From Pirellulales bacterium (GTDB lineage Bacteria; Planctomycetota; Planctomycetia; Pirellulales; Lacipirellulaceae), in the NCBI GenBank assembly GCA_019636345.1, contig JAHBXQ010000003.1, forward strand, positions 124,001-188,000: a stretch of DNA of 64,000 nt, written 5' to 3'. The translations under genes and the position numbers were made by a program. Shown here piece by piece: positions 1 through 37,562 of the stretch (position 1 is the stretch's first letter; each line of letters starts with the position of its first letter). The notes beneath the pieces were generated by a model. It was given only the letters and a program-made list of their open reading frames with translations, had not been told where the DNA came from and did not search any database.

Positions 1-1665
1 GGCGGCGGCACCCGGTTGTTGCAGCAGGACCTCATGGTCTGGCAGACGGCGCTGACCAAGCGGGCCGCCGCCGGCACGCAATACACCGTGCGACAGTATG
101 TCGATTACGACGCGAACAACGCCCCCGGCAACGAGTTCCCCAGCGCGTGGAACGCGAACATCGAGGGCGAGTTTCGGCATCCATTGCTGCAGGGAAGCGG
201 CATCGACTACAACCGGATCGCCGGGCCGACCAATGTTCCCGGCGTCTACAACGGCGTGCTCGTGGCGCGGGTCAACACGGACGTGCAGATCGCCGATTTC
301 GAACTGGCGATCCGCGACCTCGTGAGCAACGTCGAAAACGCCTACTGGGACTTGTACTTCGCATATCGCGATCTCGACGCCAAAATCGCGGCCCGGGACG
401 CGAGCCTGGAAACCTGGCGACGGATTCACGCCCTGTACGAATCGGGTCGTCGCGGCGGCGAGGCCGAGAAAGAGGCTCAAGCTCGCGAGCAGTTCTTTCT
501 GTTCCAGGAGGAAGTGCAGAACGCGCTGTCGGGCCGGTTGATCGACGGCACGCGGACCGGCAACGGCTCGAGCGGCGGCACCTTCCGAGCTCAGGGCGGC
601 GTCCATGTCGCGGAACGGCGGCTGCGGATGCTGCTGGGGCTGCCCCCCAGCGACGGGCGACTCATTCGCCCCGCCGACGAGCCGATCACCGCGCCGATGG
701 CGTTCGACTGGAGCGAAGTCACCGGCGAGTCGCTCGTCCGGCGGGTCGAGCTCCGCCGGCAACGGTGGGTCGCCCGACGGTACGAACTCGAGTGGATCGC
801 CAGCAAGAATCACTTGCTCCCGCAGTTGGACGCGGTCGGGCGGTATCGATGGCGCGGATACGGCAAGGATCTGCTCCCCACCGGGGTCGACCAGGGCCGA
901 TTTGAGAGCGCCTACGGCACGCTGGCCGACGGCGACTTTCAGGAATGGCAGGTCGGCATGGAATTGACCGTGCCGCTGGGATATCGCCAAGCCTTCGCCG
1001 GCGTGCGGAACGCCGAATTGCAGCTCGCCCGGCAGCGAGCCATCCTCCGCGAGCAGGAACGACAGGTGTTGCACGACGTGGCGGCGTCGGTCGCCGATTT
1101 GGACCGGGCCCGCGTCGTCTCCGAGACGACCGCGAACCGGCTCGCCGCGGCCCAGCAGCAGTTGGCGGCGGTCACCGCGGCGTATGAAGCGGACAAGGCG
1201 CCGCTCGATCTTCTGCTCGAGGCCCAACGGACCGTCGCCGACGCCGAGAGCCGGCACTATCGCGCGCTGGCCGAATATGCGATCGCGATGAAGAACGTCC
1301 ACTTCGCCAAGGGGACGCTGCTGGCGTACGACGGGGTTCACCTGAACGAAGGCCCCTGGAATTCGCAGGCCTACTCCGACGCGGCGGCGCTCGAGGCCCG
1401 TCGCGGCAAGGCGCGCCATCTGAACTACGCCTCGGCGATCTCGCCGCGGGTGAGTCGCGGGGGGTACGACCAGGACCCGGCCATGGCCGAGGCGCTGCCG
1501 TTGGACGCCCCGACAGCCCGGGGACCGGAGTTGCAGGAGGAGCCGGAGTCGGACGAGACGGCAAGCGCCGCGAGCCCGACGGTCGCCCCGACGAGCGAGA
1601 TCTTGCCCAAACTCCATGCCGCCGAACCGGCGCAACACGGCGTCGAACGGATGTGGGTGAAGTAA
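1..1665 (+). CDS. TolC-family outer membrane efflux protein (5' end missing)
   Basis: The reading frame is open from base 1, so the N-terminus lies outside the window; the TTG at 16 is probably internal. The visible part, about 555 residues, has the look of a TolC/OEP outer membrane factor: long helical stretches rich in Ala, Glu, Arg and Gln (roughly residues 110-220 and 330-440) alternate with strand-like segments such as the one around LLQGSGIDYNRIAG. These proteins form trimeric channel-tunnels that connect inner-membrane pumps and periplasmic adaptors to the outside. The C-terminal 100 or so residues are proline- and glutamate-rich and probably disordered. The gene converges on the acyl-AMP ligase gene. 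Its partner pump is not visible here, although HlyD-type adaptors are encoded at 29-35 kb. Confidence 0.85.
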   Translation, partial: GGGTRLLQQDLMVWQTALTKRAAAGTQYTVRQYVDYDANNAPGNEFPSAWNANIEGEFRHPLLQGSGIDYNRIAGPTNVPGVYNGVLVARVNTDVQIADFELAIRDLVSNVENAYWDLYFAYRDLDAKIAARDASLETWRRIHALYESGRRGGEAEKEAQAREQFFLFQEEVQNALSGRLIDGTRTGNGSSGGTFRAQGGVHVAERRLRMLLGLPPSDGRLIRPADEPITAPMAFDWSEVTGESLVRRVELRRQRWVARRYELEWIASKNHLLPQLDAVGRYRWRGYGKDLLPTGVDQGRFESAYGTLADGDFQEWQVGMELTVPLGYRQAFAGVRNAELQLARQRAILREQERQVLHDVAASVADLDRARVVSETTANRLAAAQQQLAAVTAAYEADKAPLDLLLEAQRTVADAESRHYRALAEYAIAMKNVHFAKGTLLAYDGVHLNEGPWNSQAYSDAAALEARRGKARHLNYASAISPRVSRGGYDQDPAMAEALPLDAPTARGPELQEEPESDETASAASPTVAPTSEILPKLHAAEPAQHGVERMWVK

Positions 1666-26458: not shown

Positions 26459-27721
26459 CTAAACTGCCGTGGCTTCCAGCGCCGCGGCGGGGACGGGAAA
26501 GTCGATGCACAACTCGCGAATTTGCCCGCGGATGCGCTCCAGAACCGCCGCGTCGTCGGCGTGGCGGAGCGCCTCGAGCATCCAGCCGCCGATCGTGCGC
26601 ATCTGATCCTCGCCCATCCCGCGGGTCGTGAGCGCCGGCGTGCCGACGCGAATGCCCGAGGGATCCATCGGCTTGCGCTGATCGAAGGGGATCATATTCT
26701 TGTTGACCGTGATCCCCGCGGCGTCGAGAGCCTCCTCAGCCTTCTTGCCGCCGATGCCCAGCGACGTGACGTCGACCAGCATCAGGTGGTTTTCAGTTCC
26801 GCCGCTGACCAGGGACAACCCTCCCGCGGCCAGCGCCTCGGCCAGGGCGCTGGCGTTGTCGATCACTTGCCGGGCGTAGACGCGGAACTCGGGCTTGAGC
26901 GCCTCGCCGAAGCAAACCGCCTTGCCTGCGATCACGTGCATCAGCGGCCCCCCCTGGATGCCGGGGAACACGCGGCTGTTGATCGTCTTGCCGTATTCTT
27001 CCTTGGCCAGACACAAGCCGCCGCGCGGGCCGCGGAGCGTCTTGTGGGTGGTCGTCGTCACGAAGTCGGCGACCCCGACCGGATTGTCGTGCAACCCCGC
27101 CGCCACCAGCCCCGCATAGTGGGCCATGTCGACCATCAGCTTGGCGCCGACCTCGCGGGCGATCTCGGCGAACTTCGGGTGCGGGATCTCACGCGGATAA
27201 GCGCTCGCCCCCGCGACGATCATCTTCGGCTTGTGCTCGCGAGCCAGCCGGGCGACCTGATCGAAATCGATCCGGTGATCGTCAGGCCGCACGCCGTAGG
27301 AGATGAAGTTGTACAACATCCCCGAGATGTTTAGCTTCATCCCGTGGGTCAGGTGGCCCCCGTGGGCCAAGTCGAGCCCCAGGACCGTGTCTCCCGGCGC
27401 AAGCGCGGTCAGGTAGATCGCCGTGTTCGCTTGGGAGCCCGAGTGAGGCTGCACATTGGCGAACTCGGCGCCGAACAGCTCCTTCGCCCGATCGATGGCG
27501 ATTTGCTCGACGACGTCGACGAACTCGCACCCGCCGTAGTACCGCCGGCCGGGGTATCCCTCGGCGTACTTGTTGGTCAGCACGCTGCCGACCGCCTGCA
27601 TGACCGCGGGACTGGTGTAGTTTTCGCTGGCGATCATCTCCAGCCCGTCCTGCTGCCGGGTCGCCTCGTCGGCGATGGCGTTCCACACGGCAGGATCGGC
27701 GGCGGCAAGGAGGTTCGTCAT
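26459..27721 (-). CDS. glyA: Serine hydroxymethyltransferase
   Basis: The enzyme converts serine and tetrahydrofolate to glycine and methylene-tetrahydrofolate. The PLP lysine is Lys227 in [15 protein letters not shown]. The N-terminal [13 protein letters not shown], the tyrosines in [12 protein letters not shown] and the ANTAIY motif are intact, and the length of 420 residues is standard. ATG 27721 has no visible Shine-Dalgarno, which is common in this window. The methylene-tetrahydrofolate it makes feeds ThyA, encoded at 61.5 kb. Confidence 0.96.
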
Positions 27722-27833
27722 CGGGGGGCAGGCGGGGGTGCGGGGAGACGGGCCGGCCTCGCCAAAATTGCAACTGGCGACGCCATCGGCAGTTAACGCG
27801 ATCGGTGTATTCTCAAACCCGGCCCCGAGGAAG

Positions 27834-29228
27834 TCAATCGGCGATGACCGCCCGCAGGTCGCCCGAGTTGTCGCTGAGCGAGGCGGCGGAGTCGTTCACG
27901 CGGAGATAGAGGATCGCGTCGCGCCGGGGCGTGATGCGGGCGGCGAGGCCGACGGGGCAGGGGGCGGCGAAGTCGGGGTCGGGCGCCGCGTCGGGCCGGT
28001 CGGGGGGGGACGCGACCCTGTCGGCCGCGGTCGGCGTCATCGGGCGCAGCGCCGCGTGCAGTTCCCCCAGCGGTCGCCCCGCGTGCCAGCGGAGCGTCAC
28101 TCCCCCCGGTTCGCAGGGCCACGGTCGACCGTCTTCGACGGCGATGACGTACCGTCCCTGCGCGGAAATCTGATACGTGCGCCCGGCCCGCAACACCGCG
28201 CCCGTCGATTGCCAGCCCCGATCGGCGCGAATCCGAACCTCGCGTTCGCCTGCGCCGACCTCGTTCGCCTCGCGATGCGTCATCGCCATGCGGGCGAAGT
28301 CATAGCCGTAGTCGATCGTCGCACAGTACGCTTGCCACTCGCACGCAAGGTCGCCCCAATCCGCGGCGAAAGTCTGCCGGACGCGATCGTTGAATTCGGG
28401 CTCGCTCGCTGCGGCCGCCAGAGTTCGGAACCGCGCACGGAACTGGGGGTGACCGTCCAGCAGCGCACAGAGCGCCCAGGTCCAGGCATAGGCGTCGTCG
28501 CTGATGGCGCGCGCCCCGTCCAGGGCGAGCACCGCCTCCAAGGACAGCGAGGCGCCCGCGGCCGCTGCGTCGCGCAATGTTCTCACCCGGCCCCACATCG
28601 GCACATCGTCCCGCTTCGCCGGAAACGCAGGGAGGCGCAGGCGGTCCTTGTCGGCGCTTGCCGCGGCGTTCCAGGTATGCGAGCCCAACAACTCGGCCAT
28701 CCCCTCGGCGTACCACCCGGGTCCGGTTCCGCCGAGGAACTCGTACATGAAGGCATGCACCCCCTCGTGCAGCAACAGGTGGCGGCGGTAGTAGTCGCTT
28801 GGCTGCTCGACGAGCCACAGCTCGCGCCCCTGGGCGAAGCCGTTGGCGAACTCGGGGTTCCGCTCGGGCATCAGCCCCAACGCAGCGAAGGTTCCGCGGT
28901 CGTCGATCAGAAAGGCCTGCGCGTGCCAAGCGCCCACGCGCTCCGGCGCGACGCCGAAATGCTCCGCCCACAACGACACGGCCGCCGCGAACACAGCGGG
29001 GAGTTCGTCGATCGCGGGATTCGGCGGCAAGTCGGTCCACAGCCGCAACCGCTGCCCGGCGACGACGCGCATCCCTGCGGCCGCGGCTCGCGCAGGGGGA
29101 ACTTCGCGCGGCGGCGGCGACTCGGCCTGAACCCTGGGGACAAACAAGCAGAAGGAACCGCAGAGGAACGCGGTGAGACGCAGATTTGCGCTGGGACGCC
29201 TTCGCGCTGCACGTTTCTCCGCGTTCAT
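27834..29228 (-). CDS. Secreted HEXXH peptidase-like protein, end of the HlyD/M50 cassette
   Basis: The 464-residue protein has HEGVH at about residues 154-158 and [11 protein letters not shown] about 17 residues later, the gluzincin-type zinc pattern. Residues about 300-464 form a beta-rich domain beginning near [13 protein letters not shown], possibly for substrate or wall binding. The N-terminal signal ([20 protein letters not shown]) is encoded by sequence that looks like the boilerplate intergenic repeat, so ATG 29228 is plausible but unproven; ATG 29072 (MRVVAGQRL) would give a cytoplasmic form. It begins 35 bases after the PqqD/M50/HlyD gene on the same strand and is probably co-transcribed. 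Confidence 0.7.
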
Positions 29229-29263
29229 TTGCGGTTCACCGATTGGCACGGCAGGCACGGGCG

Positions 29264-31510
29264 TCAGATGTCGAAGTTGAACGTGCGACTCAGGTAACGC
29301 ATGATCCGCGCGGCGAGCGTCCGGTGCGGGGTCGTGATTCGCGCCCGGCCGGTGAGCCCGTTGCGGAGCAGGCCCGAGGAGTTGTCGAGCGGGGCGGTCG
29401 CTTGGTAGCTGGTGGTCAACGGGCGGATGACCCCGTCGGGCTGCGGTTGGGCCGCGACGGGGCCCCCGGAGGTGCTCGCCAGTCGGGCCGGGACCGCTTC
29501 CATCGCATCGGTCGAGCGGTGGTCGATGGTCGAGTCGAATTCCTGCCAGCTCGCCTCTTCCAAGAGCAGTTGCACCCGCTGGCCTTCCTGCACGAGATCG
29601 ACGTCGTTCTGATCGACCACCATCACTGCGTCCCAGGCCTCGGGGTCGATGATCTGACAGACCATGTTCCGCGGTCCGTCGGGCTGCATCAGGGCGCCCA
29701 GATTCTTGGGCTCCAGCGGGCTGCCCGACCACTCGGGGAGCTCGACCTCGGGATCGGCGTGATGCGCGGGCGCCGGGGGCGGGGCGATCACCGTGCCGGC
29801 GATCGGCGCCTTCACTTCCAATTGAGCCAGCTCGGTTCGCTTTTGGGCGAGCCGCTCCTCGGCCGCTTGCAAGAGTTCGCGGGCCGTATCGAGCCCCGCC
29901 GCCGCGTCGGGATTGCGCAGCCGCAGGCGTTCGAGGTTTTCGATCTCGGTCTTCGCCGCCGCTCGATCTCCTTCGAGACGGAGGATTTCGGCCTCGGTCG
30001 ATTCATTGACCAGACGCACCAGCACCTGTCCCGCCTCGACCCGATCGCCGGGTTGCACGAGAACCTCGACCAACCGGCCAGGGGACTCGACGTAGACGCT
30101 GGCGGCCCCGCGGGGCTGGATTTCGAACGGGCAGTACACGTGCGACGGCAGCGGCACGAGCAGCACGGCCGCAACGATCCCAGCCAAGACCAGCAGCGTG
30201 AGGTACATCCGCAGCCGCTTCATCTTCGTCAGTCTCCCCGGCACTTTGAAAAACTTGTAGGCCTTCCAGGCTGGCGCTGCGAACAGGCCCCAGATCGACG
30301 CGAGCGCGATCGTCTGGCCGATGACTTTCAGACCGTACGGCTCGAACACCTTGTTGAGGAAGAACAGAATCGAAAACAGCACGACCCAGCGATACACGAA
30401 CGAGGCGACTGTGTACAGCGCGAACAGCGATTGATGCCGCTTGGGCAGAAAGGGATCTTCCGCCTCCTCGAGCCCCAGGCACCACTTGGCCAGCTTGCGA
30501 TTGAGGATCGTATTGGCCTTCTGCCGCAGGTTGGGGACCTCCATGAGGTCGCTGAGGATGTAGTACCCGTCGTATCGCAACAGGGGATTGGCGTTGAACA
30601 GGATCGTGCTCACCGAGCTGACGAACATAACGTTCAGGCAGGTGTAGTTGAGCCACCCCGGCTCGCTGAACCACCAGAGGAAGGTGGCGATCGAGGCGAG
30701 CACCACCTCGACGTACATCCCCGCGGCGCCGATCGCGGCCCGCTTCCATCGACTGGGGAGCATCCACGAGTCGCTTACGTTGCAGTACAAGCAGGGGGTG
30801 AGCACGAGAAACATGACCCCCATTTCGTGGCACTCGCCGCCGAAATGCTTGCACGACAACCCGTGGCCGAACTCGTGCAGAATCTTGGTGACCGCCAGCG
30901 TGGCCCCCAAGGCGAGCCAGTTCTGCGCGTCGAAGAACGAGTGGAAGGACGGCAGCCGCGAGCGGAACACGTCGAACTCGACCGTCACCAGAATCGCCGC
31001 GGCAAGCATTAACGACAGGTTGAAGACCGTCGCCGGTCCCGAGAAGAAGAACCGGCCGATCGGCCGCATCGCGTTCAGAATCTTCTCAGGGTCGAACCCG
31101 CGGAATCGGAACGCGAGAATGTTGCTGGCCGCGGCGAGCAGCTCCTTGCGTTTGCGTTCGTCGCGGCGCTCCTTGAGCTGATGTCCCTGGCCCGGCGAAT
31201 TGGACAGCACCAACCCGCTGCGATGGAGCATGCCGATGAAGTTCTGCAACTCCTCGACGCGGATCGTCTGGGGCGGAAACTCGCGCTCGAACTGTTCGGC
31301 GATCTCGTCGAGGCTCGACTCGCCGTCGAGCATCTGCAGGATCGCGAACTCCTCCTCCTCGAACCGAAAGTACTGCAGCCCCACCGGATCTTTGACGACC
31401 CAGTAGACCCGGCCTTGGTAACGCTGCTTGCGAGCCTTGAGATCCGGCCGTACCCGGATCGCCAGCTTGCGCGACGAGCTGGAAACGATGCTGTCGGCAA
31501 GCGTGGGCAT
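29264..31510 (-). CDS. PqqD-like / M50 site-2 protease / HlyD fusion protein
   Basis: The 748-residue protein has three parts. Residues about 30-115 resemble a PqqD-type peptide-recognition domain (VYWVVKDPVGLQYFRFEEEE). Residues about 150-430 are a multi-pass membrane peptidase of the M50 type, with zinc ligands HEFGH at 212-216 and Asp314 in NPLLRYDGYY. Residues about 440-748 are an HlyD-like adaptor, with a membrane helix, a lipoyl half (VESPGRLVEVLVQPGDRVEAG), a coiled coil and a second lipoyl half (LEVKAPIAGTVIAP). This combination suggests recognition, cutting and export of a peptide. It is the third gene of a minus-strand cassette with GAF-HlyD and HlyD genes upstream. Confidence 0.85.
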   Translation of the reverse strand: MPTLADSIVSSSSRKLAIRVRPDLKARKQRYQGRVYWVVKDPVGLQYFRFEEEEFAILQMLDGESSLDEIAEQFEREFPPQTIRVEELQNFIGMLHRSGLVLSNSPGQGHQLKERRDERKRKELLAAASNILAFRFRGFDPEKILNAMRPIGRFFFSGPATVFNLSLMLAAAILVTVEFDVFRSRLPSFHSFFDAQNWLALGATLAVTKILHEFGHGLSCKHFGGECHEMGVMFLVLTPCLYCNVSDSWMLPSRWKRAAIGAAGMYVEVVLASIATFLWWFSEPGWLNYTCLNVMFVSSVSTILFNANPLLRYDGYYILSDLMEVPNLRQKANTILNRKLAKWCLGLEEAEDPFLPKRHQSLFALYTVASFVYRWVVLFSILFFLNKVFEPYGLKVIGQTIALASIWGLFAAPAWKAYKFFKVPGRLTKMKRLRMYLTLLVLAGIVAAVLLVPLPSHVYCPFEIQPRGAASVYVESPGRLVEVLVQPGDRVEAGQVLVRLVNESTEAEILRLEGDRAAAKTEIENLERLRLRNPDAAAGLDTARELLQAAEERLAQKRTELAQLEVKAPIAGTVIAPPPAPAHHADPEVELPEWSGSPLEPKNLGALMQPDGPRNMVCQIIDPEAWDAVMVVDQNDVDLVQEGQRVQLLLEEASWQEFDSTIDHRSTDAMEAVPARLASTSGGPVAAQPQPDGVIRPLTTSYQATAPLDNSSGLLRNGLTGRARITTPHRTLAARIMRYLSRTFNFDI

Positions 31511-31663
31511 GGCGGAAGGCGAACGGCGATCGAGATTGAGGGACTCGCGCCCGCGCGCGATCCACGCACGTCAAGTTAGCGGTCGACGCCCGTCGACCCA
31601 AGCGAATTCCCGGTCACGCCTCGAGCGTGTCTTTCGCCGCGGCGGCACGAGCGAACCGGCTCA

Positions 31664-32581
31664 CTACCGCGACAGTTTGCGGTCCAGGTGGATCGTCACC
31701 TCGACGGTCATCCCGGGGCGGAGGACCCAATCCCCCTCGATCTGGACGTTCTTCATCTCCGCCCGGACTTTGTAAGCGAACTCGGACGATCCGCCCTGCA
31801 CCTCCTGGTCGACGAAGGCGATCTGTCCCTCGACCAAGGCGGTCCGCCCGCGGGCCAGGGTCGCCGTCGCCGTGACCGCGCACCCGTCAAGCTCCTGCGG
31901 ATCGTGTTGCGAGGCGGGCACCACGAGGTTGACGTACAGGTCGTCGAGCCGAACGAGTTGAAGCACGGGATCGCCCGGGTTGGCCCACTCGGCCTCGTGG
32001 GCGTACAGGATTTGCACCTCGCCGTCGAAGGGGGCGCGGATCGTCCGCCGCTCGACCGCGACGTTCGCCGCTTCGAGTTCGGCCTCGTACGCGTCGGCGT
32101 CCATCCCGGCGAGCACGCGATCGTTTTGCGCCTTCTCGTATTGCAGCAAGGCCTTCTGCCACACGAGCTTCTTCTGCCGCAGTTGGATTTCGGGGACCGA
32201 CTTGGGAACGGCTTTGTTCGCCTCGACGTCGCGGTCCCAGTCGGCCCGGGCGACGTCGCCGGCGGCGTCGGCGTAGCGCAGCTCGATGTCGTCTTCGGCC
32301 CGCTTGCGCGCCGCGTTGCGTTTCGACTCGGCCACCTTGCGTGCGGCTTGGGCTTGGCGATCGTCGATCTGGGCGAGCAATTCGCCTGCCTGGACGCGGC
32401 TCCCCTCGCGGACGGGCAGCAGACGGATCACCCCCGCTTCCTCCGCAGGGATCTTCACGGTCTGCACGAATTCGACCGTGCCGCTGGTGTGCACCTCGGC
32501 GGCGACGGAGCGCCTTGCGGCGAGACCGACCACGACCAGCGACGTCAACAGCAACGCACGACGACAGCAACGACGGACCAT
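31664..32581 (-). CDS. HlyD-family periplasmic adaptor subunit
   Basis: The 305-residue protein has a signal peptide (VRRCCRRALLLTSLVVVGLAA), a lipoyl half-motif (LLPVREGSRVQAGELLAQID), an alpha-helical coiled coil (about residues 75-165) and the second half VERRTIRAPFDGEVQ. Membrane-fusion proteins of this kind bridge an inner-membrane transporter to an outer-membrane channel such as TolC. ATG 32581 is used: GGAGG lies 7 bases upstream, better placed than for the GTG one codon before. It lies between the two larger HlyD-containing genes. Confidence 0.85.
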   Translation of the reverse strand: MVRRCCRRALLLTSLVVVGLAARRSVAAEVHTSGTVEFVQTVKIPAEEAGVIRLLPVREGSRVQAGELLAQIDDRQAQAARKVAESKRNAARKRAEDDIELRYADAAGDVARADWDRDVEANKAVPKSVPEIQLRQKKLVWQKALLQYEKAQNDRVLAGMDADAYEAELEAANVAVERRTIRAPFDGEVQILYAHEAEWANPGDPVLQLVRLDDLYVNLVVPASQHDPQELDGCAVTATATLARGRTALVEGQIAFVDQEVQGGSSEFAYKVRAEMKNVQIEGDWVLRPGMTVEVTIHLDRKLSR

Positions 32582-32710
32582 CACGATACCTCCGAAAGCG
32601 GCGCGGGCCGCGATTCATGCCAAACTGCAACGCGAAGACCACGGATGACGCGGATCCCGAGCGATCCGTACCGTCGGCGGTCGCTCGGGACCGAAGTCGC
32701 CGCGGCCCAA

Positions 32711-34846
32711 CTATATCCGGAACAAGATCCGCGACTGGACGAACTCCCACAGTTCGTGGAACCACACGTAACCGATCGGCGCCCGGCCGCAGCGGATCTT
32801 CGCCTTCACGTCGGCCGCCACCTTCAGGTCGCGGGCCGGGTCGGCCACGATCTGCTTGAGCTGCTCTTGATCGAACTCGACGTCCATCCGGACCGTGTTC
32901 CCTTTGTCTCCCTCGACCTCGGCGTTGGCGTGGATCGTGGTGACGCGGCCGACGAGTTTCTGATCGACGTTGGTCGCCAGGATGAACGTGACTTCCAATT
33001 GGGCCTGGGAATCCTGACGGAGCAACTCGTCGAGTTGCGCCGTCACGTGCCCCATTTTCTTCTCGGGGACGTAGATTTCGAGCATCCACCCTTGCGACGG
33101 GTCGGCGATCTCCATCAGTCGATGCCCCGTGCGGACGGTTCGTCCCTGGATGAGGTCCTTGACCTTCCAGGTGACGACCTTGCCGTCGACGGGGCTGCGG
33201 ATCAGCAGCTTCTCGCGCTGCGATTTGTGAAACGCGACCTGCTTGTCGAGGCCGTCGAGTTGCGTTTGCAGGACCGCCTTCTCGGCGATCAGTTGGTCGC
33301 GATCTCCGGGGCGGGCCGTCGCGGCGCTGAATTTGCGCAATTGCAGATCGACCGTGCTGATCTTCTGCAGCACGGCGTCGCGTTCCTTGTTCAGCGCGAC
33401 TTCCTGTTCGTCGAGCGCGCTGCTCCGCTGCACGGCCAGCACTTCGCCCGCGGTCACCGCGTCGCCGTGGGTCTTTTTGACCTCGGTGATCATGCCGTCG
33501 AGCTCGGCGAACACGTTGCGGCGTCGCTCGGGGAGCAGCTTGCCGTCGGCCGTGACGGTGAAGTCGTACGGCACGAGCGTCAACGTCGCCGCCACGGCCG
33601 TCACCGCGATCGCCGCGGCGATCGTCTTGGGCAGATTGCGGGCCGCGACCAGCACGCGGCTCTTGCCGATGAGCCGCCACAGCGGCATCAGGAACAGACT
33701 CTCGTGGAACGCCGCATTGGTGAGCGCCGTGCCGCTGTGCCGGCGCACGACGTCGACCCGCTGCAACAGCCCCTCGGGCTGCCGACCGTCGACGAGCTGC
33801 TCGATCACCAGGACGCCCAGAATGTTGTCGGCCCGTTTCTTGGCGGCATCGTCGTCGTCGCCGGAGTCGTCGATCTCGCGCAACGGGAGGACGGCCAGTT
33901 GCTTGGTATGCGATTCGTCGACGTAGGCGTTGACCGCCTTCTCGACCTGCGGGGCGAGATTTTTCGTGTCGCCGGCGTACCATAGGTCCTCGCCGCTGCG
34001 GCCGACGACCCGAGCCAAGTCGCGCAACAGCCGGACGACGTTCGACCGCTTGTCGAACGTGTCCTGCCCGCTGATCGCTTCGACGACGTAGCTGCTCCCC
34101 TTGCGGAGGACGACCGTCACGCGGTCGCACCCGATGAGCCGCCGCCCTTCGTTGGCGATCGTGTAGGCGGTCTCGCGGGAGTCGAGTCGTTCGTGAACGA
34201 GCGACGTGAAGCTCTCGAGCTGCTCCCACAACGATTGCTTGCTGACGAACTGCCGCAGGCGGCGGGTCTTGAGGTACTCGCCGGCGATCTCGCACATTTG
34301 CACGAGAAAGCGGAGGTAGCCGCGCTGGGCAGTCGGCCGGGCGCCGGTCCGCTGGAAAATCTCCACCAGCCCGTCGACCCCTTTGTCGGTGCGGATGGGA
34401 GCGACCACCAGCAAGTAATCGGTGGGGTTGGCGGCGATCTGGTGCTGGTCGTCCCCCTCGCCCCCCGCGCCGGAGTGGGGCGGGGCGAGGCTCGGCTCCC
34501 CTTTCTCGGCGATTTGGGCCAGAAGCCGGGCGTGCTGCATCTGCAGCGCGGGGTCGCGAGCCAGCCCGGTCTGCTGCAGGTTCACCTGGTACTGCGGTTT
34601 GAAGCCGGCGCCTTCTTCAATCGTCCAAACGACCCCGCCGAACGCGGCCAACGCGGCAATCGATTTGTCGAGCAATCCGGCGAAAAACTCAGTCGGCTCG
34701 ACCTCGCTCTTGGCCAGGTCGTCGACTTCTTGGACGAGGGACTGGATTTCCTGCTTGGCCCGGCGGATGGCGTCCTCGTCGGGCAGCCTCCCTTCGTCGG
34801 CGTACTCGTCGCTCACAGCCGGACCTCGACGGAATTCGTCAGACAT
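32711..34846 (-). CDS. GAF-domain protein fused to an HlyD-type adaptor
   Basis: Of 711 residues, the first 370 or so are cytoplasmic and include a GAF-like domain (about residues 190-360, with AYTIANEGRRLIGCDRVTVV and ILGVLVIEQLVDG). A membrane helix follows near residue 415 (TIAAAIAVTAVAATLTLV). The rest is HlyD-like: lipoyl half RNVFAELDGMITEVKKTHGD, a coiled coil and the closing half KLLIRSPVDGKVVTW. The GAF part may sense a small ligand and tune export. ATG 34846 was chosen over an in-frame ATG 63 bases upstream because the extra residues are low-complexity. It is the first gene of the four-gene cassette. Confidence 0.82.
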   Translation of the reverse strand: MSDEFRRGPAVSDEYADEGRLPDEDAIRRAKQEIQSLVQEVDDLAKSEVEPTEFFAGLLDKSIAALAAFGGVVWTIEEGAGFKPQYQVNLQQTGLARDPALQMQHARLLAQIAEKGEPSLAPPHSGAGGEGDDQHQIAANPTDYLLVVAPIRTDKGVDGLVEIFQRTGARPTAQRGYLRFLVQMCEIAGEYLKTRRLRQFVSKQSLWEQLESFTSLVHERLDSRETAYTIANEGRRLIGCDRVTVVLRKGSSYVVEAISGQDTFDKRSNVVRLLRDLARVVGRSGEDLWYAGDTKNLAPQVEKAVNAYVDESHTKQLAVLPLREIDDSGDDDDAAKKRADNILGVLVIEQLVDGRQPEGLLQRVDVVRRHSGTALTNAAFHESLFLMPLWRLIGKSRVLVAARNLPKTIAAAIAVTAVAATLTLVPYDFTVTADGKLLPERRRNVFAELDGMITEVKKTHGDAVTAGEVLAVQRSSALDEQEVALNKERDAVLQKISTVDLQLRKFSAATARPGDRDQLIAEKAVLQTQLDGLDKQVAFHKSQREKLLIRSPVDGKVVTWKVKDLIQGRTVRTGHRLMEIADPSQGWMLEIYVPEKKMGHVTAQLDELLRQDSQAQLEVTFILATNVDQKLVGRVTTIHANAEVEGDKGNTVRMDVEFDQEQLKQIVADPARDLKVAADVKAKIRCGRAPIGYVWFHELWEFVQSRILFRI

Positions 34847-34945
34847 GGGATCGCACGGCGCCCAAGGGCCGGGAGGAGACGAGTTGTCCCGAGGGCTGCG
34901 GCGCGGCACGGGCCGAGCGATCTCGGGGCGATAGCGGAATGAATC

Positions 34946-34974
34946 ATTTTTCCGATGCGGGCGGAAATCGTCAA
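34946..34974 (-). promoter_or_regulatory. Possible promoter of the GAF-HlyD cassette
   Basis: On the minus strand TTGACG is followed after 17 bases by AAAAAT, in the most A/T-rich part of the region, about 100 bases before the start codon at 34846. Confidence 0.45.
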
Positions 34975-35164
34975 ATTGTTATCTGGCAACAACTTGCACC
35001 GAATTAAGGGAGGGCCGGCAAGACCGTTGCTGCGGGCATGTTCCGGCCAAAGAGAGTGTTTCCCGCCCTGGGGGACAAGACCAATCTCGAAGTTGCCCCG
35101 TCCGGGGGGTCGAGAGGAGGGCCCGGACCGGCCGAAGCCGGCCGAAATGGCTCACGACTCGCCG

Positions 35165-35193
35165 TTGGACAGTGCCGCTGGGAGTGGTAGGAT
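35165..35193 (+). promoter_or_regulatory. Possible promoter of infA
   Basis: TTGGAC is followed after 17 bases by TAGGAT, about 100 bases before the infA start. The match to consensus is moderate. Confidence 0.35.
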
Positions 35194-35295
35194 AGTAGGA
35201 TTATCGACGACGCGCGGTCGTCGAGTGCATTTCGCCGGTCGGTGCGCGGGCGGGGTCGTTCCTTGCTCTGGCGGCGCCGCGGCTCTGAGAGATTT

Positions 35296-35520
35296 ATGGC
35301 TAAACAAAAGGAAGAAGCCCTCGAAGTCGAGGGAGTCGTCACCCAAGCCCTGGCAAACACCCGATTTCGCGTGGAAATCGAGGGGGGGCACACCGTGACC
35401 GCCCACGTGGCCGGTCGCATGCGCAAGTACTTCATCCGCATCGTCCCCGGCGACAAGGTGCGGGTCGAATTGTCGCCCTATGATCTGACCAAAGGTCGGA
35501 TCACGTTCCGCGAGCGGTAG
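35296..35520 (+). CDS. infA: Translation initiation factor IF-1
   Basis: The 74-residue protein is a single S1-like OB fold: [38 protein letters not shown] and [18 protein letters not shown] are the family's landmark segments. IF-1 binds the ribosomal A site during initiation. The start MAKQKEE is standard; in-frame codons further upstream are not conserved. It stands alone rather than in a ribosomal-protein operon. Confidence 0.97.
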
Positions 35521-35861
35521 GCGACTCGCGGCGCCGCGCGTCCGGTGCGTTCCGGTCGATCTTTGCGCCCCCGCGGGGGGCGTTCTGCGCTCGTTTCTTG
35601 GCCTCGCGGCCGTTTTTTTGGCAATACTGGCCGAGATTCTCGGCGATTGAGCGTATACATTCGTGGGTGCGAGAAGGCCGCTCCGGCGCACTTCGAGCGC
35701 CGGTCGAGCCGTCTTCAGCCGGGACGCCGGGGGGCGCGCCCGGGCTTGCTGCAGCGAGCCGCTTCGCCAGGCTGCCTGTTGCACCGGGCGAACCGTCGCG
35801 CTTGCCTTCCCGTACCCACCCTCGTTGCGGACATTCTGCCTCGTTCTAGGAGTTTTTGATC
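35521..35861. other. Intergenic stretch after infA
   Basis: A GC-rich hairpin (about 35566-35582) and a short GGCC-TCGC-GGCC stem at 35600-35611 followed by seven T residues may end infA transcription. The rest holds only the AGGAG ribosome site (35848-35852) of the next gene. I see no coding frame. Confidence 0.5.
35600..35619 (+). terminator. Possible terminator of infA
   Basis: A four-base-pair G/C stem with a TCGC loop is followed by G and seven T residues. The stem is short, so confidence is low. Confidence 0.35.
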
Positions 35862-37562
35862 GTGATCACCTCAGTCCTTCGCACGACCGCCGCCAGCGCC
35901 GCGGTTGCCGCCGCGCTGACCGGCTCGCTCGTGAGCTCGGTTCGCACCCTTGCCGCCGAACCGATGGCGGTCGTCGCTTTCTCGGGCTACGACGCGCTGA
36001 TGCAAGACGCCGATTTCATCGGCAGCCTGGGCGGGCAACCGCAGGCGTCGCAGACCATCGAGATGATGCTGCAGATGTTCACGCAGAACAAAGGCCTCGC
36101 GGGGCTCGACAAGTCGAAGCCGATCGGGGTGATCGTGCTGTCGGATCAGGGGATGATCATGCCTCTGATCTGCGTGCCGGTCACCGACGCCGCCGAACTG
36201 TTGGCCGTCGCCAAGGGCTTTGGCGTGACGACCCAAGACATGGGGGACGGGATGATTCAGATTCAGACCCCCAGCATGCCGCTGTTCGGCAAGGAGTCGG
36301 GGGGGTGGCTGCACCTGTCGATCGCGCCGACCGCCGTCACGGCGGCCCCGGCGAACGTCGCCGCGATGCTGACCGATTTGACCCAGGAGTACGACCTCGC
36401 CGCGCGGGTGTTCGTGCAGAACGTCCCCGAGGCGTATCGCCAGCAAGGGATCGAGATCATCTCGCAAGCGGCCCAACAGGGCTTGCAGAAGCAAGCCGGG
36501 GAGAGCGACGACGACTACGCCGCTCGTGAAAAGCAAGTGGAGGACGGACTCGCCCAACTTCGCGAGGCTTTGGCCCAGCTTGACCAACTGACGTTCGGCT
36601 TGGCGGTCGATTCGAAGCAAGCTCGAGCGATCATCGACGGCAGCGGGACGGCTCTGCCCGGGACGAAGCTGGCCGAGGAGTTCGCCAAGGCCGAGAAGTC
36701 GACGACCAATTTCGCGGGGTTCTTCGAGCCTGAGGCGGCGATGACGTTGTGTCTGGCGGCCGAGGCGGCCGAGAGCGATCTGGCTCAGATGGAGCAGCAG
36801 TTCGCCGCCGCGCGCAAGGAGGCGTACAAAGAGATCGACAAGAACGACAAGCTCTCCGACGAGGGGAAGACGACGATCAAGTCGGCGCTCGACGACATCC
36901 TGGCGGCGATTGAAGCGACGGCGAAGGCCGGGAAGTTCGACGGCGGGGCGGTGCTGAATCTCGAGGCTTCGGCGCTGACTTTCGTCGCCGGCGGCATGAT
37001 CGTCGAGCCGGCCAAGATCGAGTCGGCCCTGAAGAAGATCGTCGAAGTCGCCGAGAAAGAGGGCAAAGGCGACATGCCGAAAGTGTCTTGGAACGCCCAG
37101 CAGGTCGGGGGACACGCCTTCCACACGCTGTCGGCCCCGGTTCCCGAACATGAAGCAGAAGCCCGCACCATGTTCGGCGAGTACGTTGAGATGGCCGTCG
37201 GAATCGGCAAGGAGTCGGTGTACTTTGCCGTCGGCAAGGACTGGCAGCAAAAGGTGAAAAGCGTCATGGACGCCTCGGCCGCCAGCCCCGGCAAGAGCGT
37301 CCCCCCGATGGAGATGACGTTCGCTCTGGGCCAGATCATGAACTTCGCCAAGACCGTGGCCGAGGACGACGTCAAACCGATGCTCGAGCAAATTTCGCTG
37401 ATGATCGCCAACGAGACGAGCGGCCGCGACCACGTGCGGATGGTGGTCCAGCCGATCAAGAGCGGTCAGCGGATGCGGTTCGAACTCGAGGAAGGGGTCC
37501 TGCGTTCGATCGCCATGGGCGCCATGGCGGCCCAGATGCAGGCGGCCGGCGCCGGCCGTTAG
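35862..37562 (+). CDS. Secreted protein of unknown function
   Basis: The 566-residue protein starts at GTG 35862, 9 bases after AGGAG; a TTG two codons earlier is too close to that site. A signal peptide (TSVLRTTAASAAVAAALTG) precedes a long Ala-, Glu- and Met-rich domain. The central part has charged helices (about residues 205-240 and 305-350), and the pattern AVDSKQARAIIDGSGTALPG and GGMIVEPAKIESALKKIV suggests two similar alpha-beta halves. No catalytic motif is visible. Proteins of this type are frequent in planctomycetes and have no assigned role. A hairpin at 37596-37630 closes the transcription unit. Confidence 0.7.
   Translation: MITSVLRTTAASAAVAAALTGSLVSSVRTLAAEPMAVVAFSGYDALMQDADFIGSLGGQPQASQTIEMMLQMFTQNKGLAGLDKSKPIGVIVLSDQGMIMPLICVPVTDAAELLAVAKGFGVTTQDMGDGMIQIQTPSMPLFGKESGGWLHLSIAPTAVTAAPANVAAMLTDLTQEYDLAARVFVQNVPEAYRQQGIEIISQAAQQGLQKQAGESDDDYAAREKQVEDGLAQLREALAQLDQLTFGLAVDSKQARAIIDGSGTALPGTKLAEEFAKAEKSTTNFAGFFEPEAAMTLCLAAEAAESDLAQMEQQFAAARKEAYKEIDKNDKLSDEGKTTIKSALDDILAAIEATAKAGKFDGGAVLNLEASALTFVAGGMIVEPAKIESALKKIVEVAEKEGKGDMPKVSWNAQQVGGHAFHTLSAPVPEHEAEARTMFGEYVEMAVGIGKESVYFAVGKDWQQKVKSVMDASAASPGKSVPPMEMTFALGQIMNFAKTVAEDDVKPMLEQISLMIANETSGRDHVRMVVQPIKSGQRMRFELEEGVLRSIAMGAMAAQMQAAGAGR

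Follow-up and report, generated by a model that had tools for sequence, protein, structure and literature searches.

A locus that combines a secondary SecA_DEAD protein with three HlyD/M50/GAF proteins occurs in Planctomycetes, Verrucomicrobia, Proteobacteria and other groups, according to the accessible part of a study by Kamneva, Poudel and Ward published in 2015 (PMC4452313). There, the module is described as lacking an ABC transporter and its role is left unknown, the proposal being that it serves in secretion, with SecA as the ATPase that supplies the energy and the M50 protein as the membrane part. The same portion of the paper names no cargo and mentions neither a LEPR-XLL leader nor a PqqD domain (PMC4452313). 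Annotation of the LEPR-XLL domain (NCBIfam NF012209) goes no further than a short domain at the N-terminus, to which the sources searched assign no machine; HlyD, M50 and TolC go unmentioned in a paper that refers to LEPR-XLL.

A conserved three-gene unit

The window (the whole stretch of DNA analysed, 64,000 nucleotides) contains a run of four genes at positions 27834-34846, which the sequence-only reading had described as a cassette of three HlyD-type proteins and a secreted HEXXH protein without an ABC transporter. The four genes proved real, P1, P2, P3 and P4 all being intact minus-strand reading frames (Table 1), and no ABC gene was found in the run, in a paralogous locus of the same genome or in the operons holding plasmid homologues (see below). 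P1 matched the Pfam families GAF (24.2 bits, cut-off 22.4) and HlyD_3 (44.6, cut-off 22.2), both above threshold. P2 matched HlyD_3 with 58.2 bits and RND_mfp (TIGR01730) with 115.8 bits, above the cut-off of 94.9, and P3 matched Peptidase_M50 (29.5 bits, cut-off 27.2) and HlyD_3 (23.2, cut-off 22.2). The PqqD score of P3, 20.1, lies below the Pfam cut-off of 23.4; 14 of 40 family members match PqqD at E<=0.01. In a confident AlphaFold model of P3 (mean pLDDT 86.2) the predicted strand-helix order of this region is compatible with PqqD; the PqqD assignment is marginal. A structure search with P3 was dominated by HlyD-type adaptors, the HlyD part resembling MacA, AcrA and MexA, and retrieved neither the PqqD nor the M50 part separately. 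A search of Rfam over window positions 27000-36000 gave no match, and no homologues were found in the viral contigs searched.

Table 1. Location of the genes discussed. Numbers alone are window positions; G000 denotes the genome of the window, L numbers denote loci.
Feature	Location	Strand	Remarks
TolC/OEP-family outer-membrane channel gene, 3' part	1..1665	+	PF02321, 82.8 bits
P4, secreted gluzincin-like metallopeptidase, C-terminal PA-IL-like lectin fold	27834..29228	-	
P3, PqqD-like N-terminal domain, multi-helix M50 protease, HlyD adaptor	29264..31510	-	748 aa
P2, free-standing HlyD/RND-type periplasmic adaptor, signal peptide	31664..32584	-	306 aa, GTG start
P1, cytosolic GAF region, transmembrane helix, periplasmic HlyD-type adaptor	32711..34846	-	711 aa
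Secondary SecA	G000:C1:994668-996557		657-aa open frame
DUF3467 gene	G000:C2:170306		
Paralogous triad	G000:C3:117947 to ~123107		
Cluster c10 convergent gene, examples	L032 12597-13307, L075 7213-8136, L078 10876-11676, others		
Protein kinase	L032 2292-7193		1634 aa, 17 WD40 repeats
AsmA-like DUF748 gene, example	L034 9158-12670		between P3 and P4; same-family loci
Small DUF3467 protein	L062 13818-14171, L213 12759-13100, L224 16739-17044		beside triad or secondary SecA
Giant Ig-like protein, E. coli plasmid NZ_CP081687.1	L215 7439-13734		leader LESRQLFDGA

P3 fits the M50 (site-2 protease) family by its HExxH and NPxxxxDG zinc ligands and its several membrane helices. The two motifs read HEFGH at residues 212-216 and NANPLLRYDG at 306-315, and residues H212, E213, H216 and D314 were invariant in alignments of 16 and of 40 sequences. 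Among 58 planctomycete homologues examined, HExxH was present in every one and the second ligand motif, NPL..DG, in 57 (locus L089 has a variant), with NPL(L/M)R(Y/F)DG as its conserved form. Wide loss of these ligands, which would have spoken against the sequence-only reading, was not seen in these homologues.

Relatives of the M50-HlyD protein were present in 58 of the 59 genomes of the order. The gene order P1-P2-P3 was kept in 38 of 39 orthologous loci of the order, as well as in most paralogous loci, so that the expected retention in relatives holds for the triad. This does not extend to P4, which occurs in 9 of 17 same-family loci versus none of the 22 loci from other families. No Pfam family could be assigned to this protein; it carries the motifs HEGVH and EGMAE, and its fold is predicted to be that of a collagenase/M1-like gluzincin, followed at the C-terminus by a lectin domain like PA-IL (LecA). 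On its distribution we judge P4 not to be part of the module, and treat it as a family-level neighbour rather than the end of the set, as had been supposed; the conserved unit comprises three genes and not four. In 8 of the 9 P4-bearing loci, P3 and P4 are separated by an AsmA-like DUF748 gene coding for ~1000-1200 aa, which neither the window nor the congener G001 has.

Membership in the secondary-SecA module

The three proteins correspond to those of the published module: P1 combines GAF with a HlyD/biotin-lipoyl domain, P2 is a HlyD/biotin-lipoyl secretion protein and P3 a membrane protein joining an M50 peptidase to HlyD. The genome of the window also encodes, on another contig, a secondary SecA of the kind described, with SecA_DEAD, P-loop and preprotein-binding (PP_bind) domains and no SecA_SW match. 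In four loci from sister families (L054, L056, L108 and L131), the orthologous triad directly follows such a gene in the order SecA2-P1-P2-P3, and in our sample of the phylum a second SecA was found in 39 of 57 genomes with an M50-HlyD protein versus 1 of 138 genomes lacking one. Because of these domain sets, the secondary SecA of the genome, the gene adjacency and the co-occurrence across the phylum, we assign the window triad to this secondary-SecA, type I secretion-like module, whose basic domain set and ABC-free status were already published in 2015 (PMC4452313).

In three loci (Table 1), the triad or the secondary SecA has a small DUF3467 protein as its neighbour. The genome of the window carries a single DUF3467 copy, located elsewhere. 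It may act as a chaperone or an adaptor for the machine.

Giant LEPR-XLL proteins beside homologous loci

A paralogous triad lies just outside the window, ~35 kb from the first. The TolC-family gene at the start of the window is divergent from this triad and part of its locus, which is adjoined by a gene for a PKD-repeat protein of 1601 aa. The N-terminus of this protein, PRVLEPRRLLDAAG, resembles the LEPR-XLL domain NF012209 and contains the leader LEPRRLLDAA. In the paralogous clade, the order TolC, triad, uncharacterised convergent gene and giant with LExRxxLxA near its start is a recurring one. The convergent gene (cluster c10), which keeps its place between the giant and the TolC-type triad, encodes a conserved hydrophobic C-terminus, GLVFLIP for example. 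A protein kinase with WD40 repeats adjoins the LEPR giant in the paralogous locus of L032, and similar large genes recur at other loci of the paralogous type.

We scanned genes of at least 800 aa lying no more than 5 kb from a planctomycete M50-HlyD gene for the strict leader motif LE.R.{1,2}[LMV].{0,2}[AST] near the N-terminus. The motif was found in 25 of 66 such genes. Of 14 large genes at a greater distance none had it, 15 did among 1158 shorter genes, and the rate in shuffled N-termini was 0.8%. The N-termini of giants linked to M50-HlyD are basic and lack a strongly hydrophobic core of the signal peptide kind. On proteobacterial plasmids a LEPR giant lies in the operon in 13 of 16 loci, namely those of Azospirillum (two), Thalassospira, Pseudosulfitobacter, Rhodobacteraceae M382, Escherichia coli, Niveispirillum, Methylosinus, Mesorhizobium, Tistrella, Cupriavidus, Indioceanicola and Ensifer; none was seen in the loci of Phyllobacterium, Magnetospirillum and Caballeronia. 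The Pseudosulfitobacter giant reaches ~12,700 aa, and those of Thalassospira and Rhodobacteraceae M382 were already annotated as LEPR-XLL by the depositors or NCBI. On the E. coli plasmid, the genes that share an operon with the giant (Table 1) encode TolC, an M50-HlyD homologue and two HlyD proteins. Plasmid records matching P3 include 18 from Escherichia and 8 from Citrobacter.

Across 195 genomes of the phylum, M50-HlyD was present in 28 of the 31 with an NF012209 match versus 29 of the 164 without one (p=7e-15; p=3e-13 in other classes alone), p-values that treat the genomes as independent and so overstate the independence of related taxa. No NF012209 match at E<=0.05 was seen in 29 M50-HlyD genomes. 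In the P3 tree, the clade of the window counts 79 tips, 8 of them LEPR-linked and 5 SecA2-linked, and LEPR giants are also found at orthologous triads of sister families together with the secondary SecA. When NF012209 matches were considered genome-wide, linkage to M50-HlyD within 25 kb was not significant (3 of 86 and 4 of 78), so that the claim of linkage rests on the direct neighbours of M50-HlyD and on the operons of the plasmids. No SecA, TolC, DUF3467 or LEPR gene adjoins the window triad. The genome carries four dispersed LEPR proteins, with leaders LLAAD, VMSAD, ILLAGD and LLSAD, all of the (A/S)(A/G)D type. Since most NF012209 matches are unlinked to M50-HlyD, it is our assumption that the triad serves these proteins in trans.

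Leader types match machine types

The leaders fall into types that follow the composition of the machine. In proteobacteria, the leaders end in ..L(S/A/N)AD at all 6 loci with a secondary SecA or DUF3467, and in ..(F/Y)D(A/G)A at all 7 loci without either (p=6e-4). The trend has the same direction in planctomycete loci (p=0.046), giving p=5e-5 for all loci together, and machines with TolC only have no secondary SecA in their loci. The window genome fits this pattern, its dispersed ..(A/S)(A/G)D leaders occurring with a secondary SecA and DUF3467 and its TolC-linked paralogue having a giant with LLDAA. This match between leader types and the machine parts of the genome suggests that the dispersed LEPR set is served by the window triad, and the TolC-linked giant by the paralogous triad beside it.

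Proposed mechanism and alternatives

We consider it likely that LEPR-XLL proteins leave the cell through an ABC-free, type-I-like export machine of which the triad is the housekeeping copy. Given the associations described above, the cargo that the triad most likely recognises, cleaves and exports consists of giant surface proteins, not of small peptides. From the conservation of the genes and catalytic residues, the parts present in the genome, the linkage and co-occurrence and the correlation of subtypes we infer the following physical steps. The cargo, often very large, would have a basic N-terminus and, next to it, LExRxLL(S/A)AD in place of a hydrophobic Sec signal peptide, and the PqqD-like domain of P3, with a fold like that used in RiPP recognition, would bind this leader. 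Passage of the chain through the inner membrane would be powered by the secondary SecA ATPase, whose gene lies elsewhere in the genome, and the membrane part of P3 may form the pore or lie beside it. The M50 site would then cut the leader or a membrane-held segment, and P1, P2 and P3 would together build, from their HlyD parts, a periplasmic conduit that leads to a TolC-type channel. Gating or sensing may fall to the cytosolic GAF part of P1, for which a sensor role is a plausible guess.

The peptide or signal cargo first envisaged corresponds to a triad that exports and matures small RiPP-like peptides, with PqqD binding the leader, M50 cutting and the HlyD parts exporting. In favour of this are the PqqD-like domain and residues 31-404 of P3, which score 178.2 bits against the daptide intramembrane metalloprotease family NF041824 and 50 bits against YydH/LiaK (NF058609); both scores, however, are below the curated cut-offs (300 for NF041824). 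Moreover, a small-ORF search of the intergenic gaps of the triad yielded none that was conserved, the only matches being overlaps with infA, and the neighbours that recur beside homologous loci are giant proteins with a common leader, not peptides. Peptide export thus appears quite improbable to us: as cargo, giant LEPR-XLL proteins have the best support, and small peptides are probably wrong. The other half of the original proposal, an ABC-free export path coupled to an M50 protease, is supported, its genes being kept together in relatives.

M50 proteases often have signalling roles, and the triad might perform regulated intramembrane proteolysis, the GAF and HlyD parts sensing the state of the envelope and P3 cleaving a regulatory membrane protein, with no export at all. 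The GAF domain, the lack of linkage between the window copy and any cargo and the near universality of the triad in the order would all agree with this, but three HlyD adaptors, TolC genes at paralogous loci and a secondary SecA at orthologous loci fit export better, and no conserved regulator gene adjoins the triad in the loci examined; we hold this explanation to be unlikely. The DUF748 gene that follows the triad in many same-family genomes raises another scenario, in which the window copy acts with this AsmA-like protein in envelope lipid or outer-membrane homeostasis and only the paralogue exports LEPR giants. Yet we saw no DUF748 gene next to triads from other families, and the genus of the window lacks it, while orthologous triads of sister families adjoin the secondary SecA and LEPR giants, which leaves this scenario with little probability. 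We therefore retain export of LEPR-XLL giants as the preferred reading.

Comparison with known systems

What the present analysis adds is a candidate cargo for a module of Gram-negative bacteria that has a second SecA but no ABC pump and has been known since 2015 with neither cargo nor role. In the literature searched, no earlier proposal of LExRxLL giants as its cargo was found. Conversely, LEPR-XLL giants have hitherto been annotated without an exporter; the link puts forward a leader together with a receptor/protease and a class of cargo, and makes both module and giants directly testable. If true, it would account for the surface display of proteins of ~1000 to 12000 residues that have no obvious Sec signal, by a route that uses no ABC pump. 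The chances appear to us about even that Planctomycetota and Proteobacteria share a distinct pathway, defined by the LExRxLL leader, a PqqD-M50-HlyD receptor/protease, SecA in one subtype and matched leader and machine subtypes, that replaces the ABC pump for giants.

Measured against the accessible description of the secondary-SecA module, the window genome shares the GAF-HlyD, HlyD and M50-HlyD proteins, the lack of an ABC component and a secondary SecA without the wing-scaffold domain, and differs in that its SecA gene is unlinked to the triad. LEPR-XLL proteins and DUF4347 giants occur both in this genome and beside homologous machines. The HlyD-type adaptors, the TolC of the paralogous locus and the very large surface cargo recall type I secretion (HlyB-HlyD-TolC); however, the triad has no ABC ATPase, an M50 protease is fused to one adaptor, and the leader of the candidate cargo is N-terminal, whereas that of type I substrates is C-terminal. 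NF041824 and YydH/LiaK proteins share the arrangement of a PqqD-like domain with M50 and can be aligned over much of P3, which differs from them by its additional HlyD adaptor and sits in no recognised RiPP cluster. In the SecA2 accessory secretion of Gram-positive bacteria, a second SecA is dedicated to special, often large surface proteins. That system works in another envelope without adaptor and TolC parts, and, unlike Gram-positive SecA2, the secondary SecA of the window genome lacks the wing-scaffold domain.
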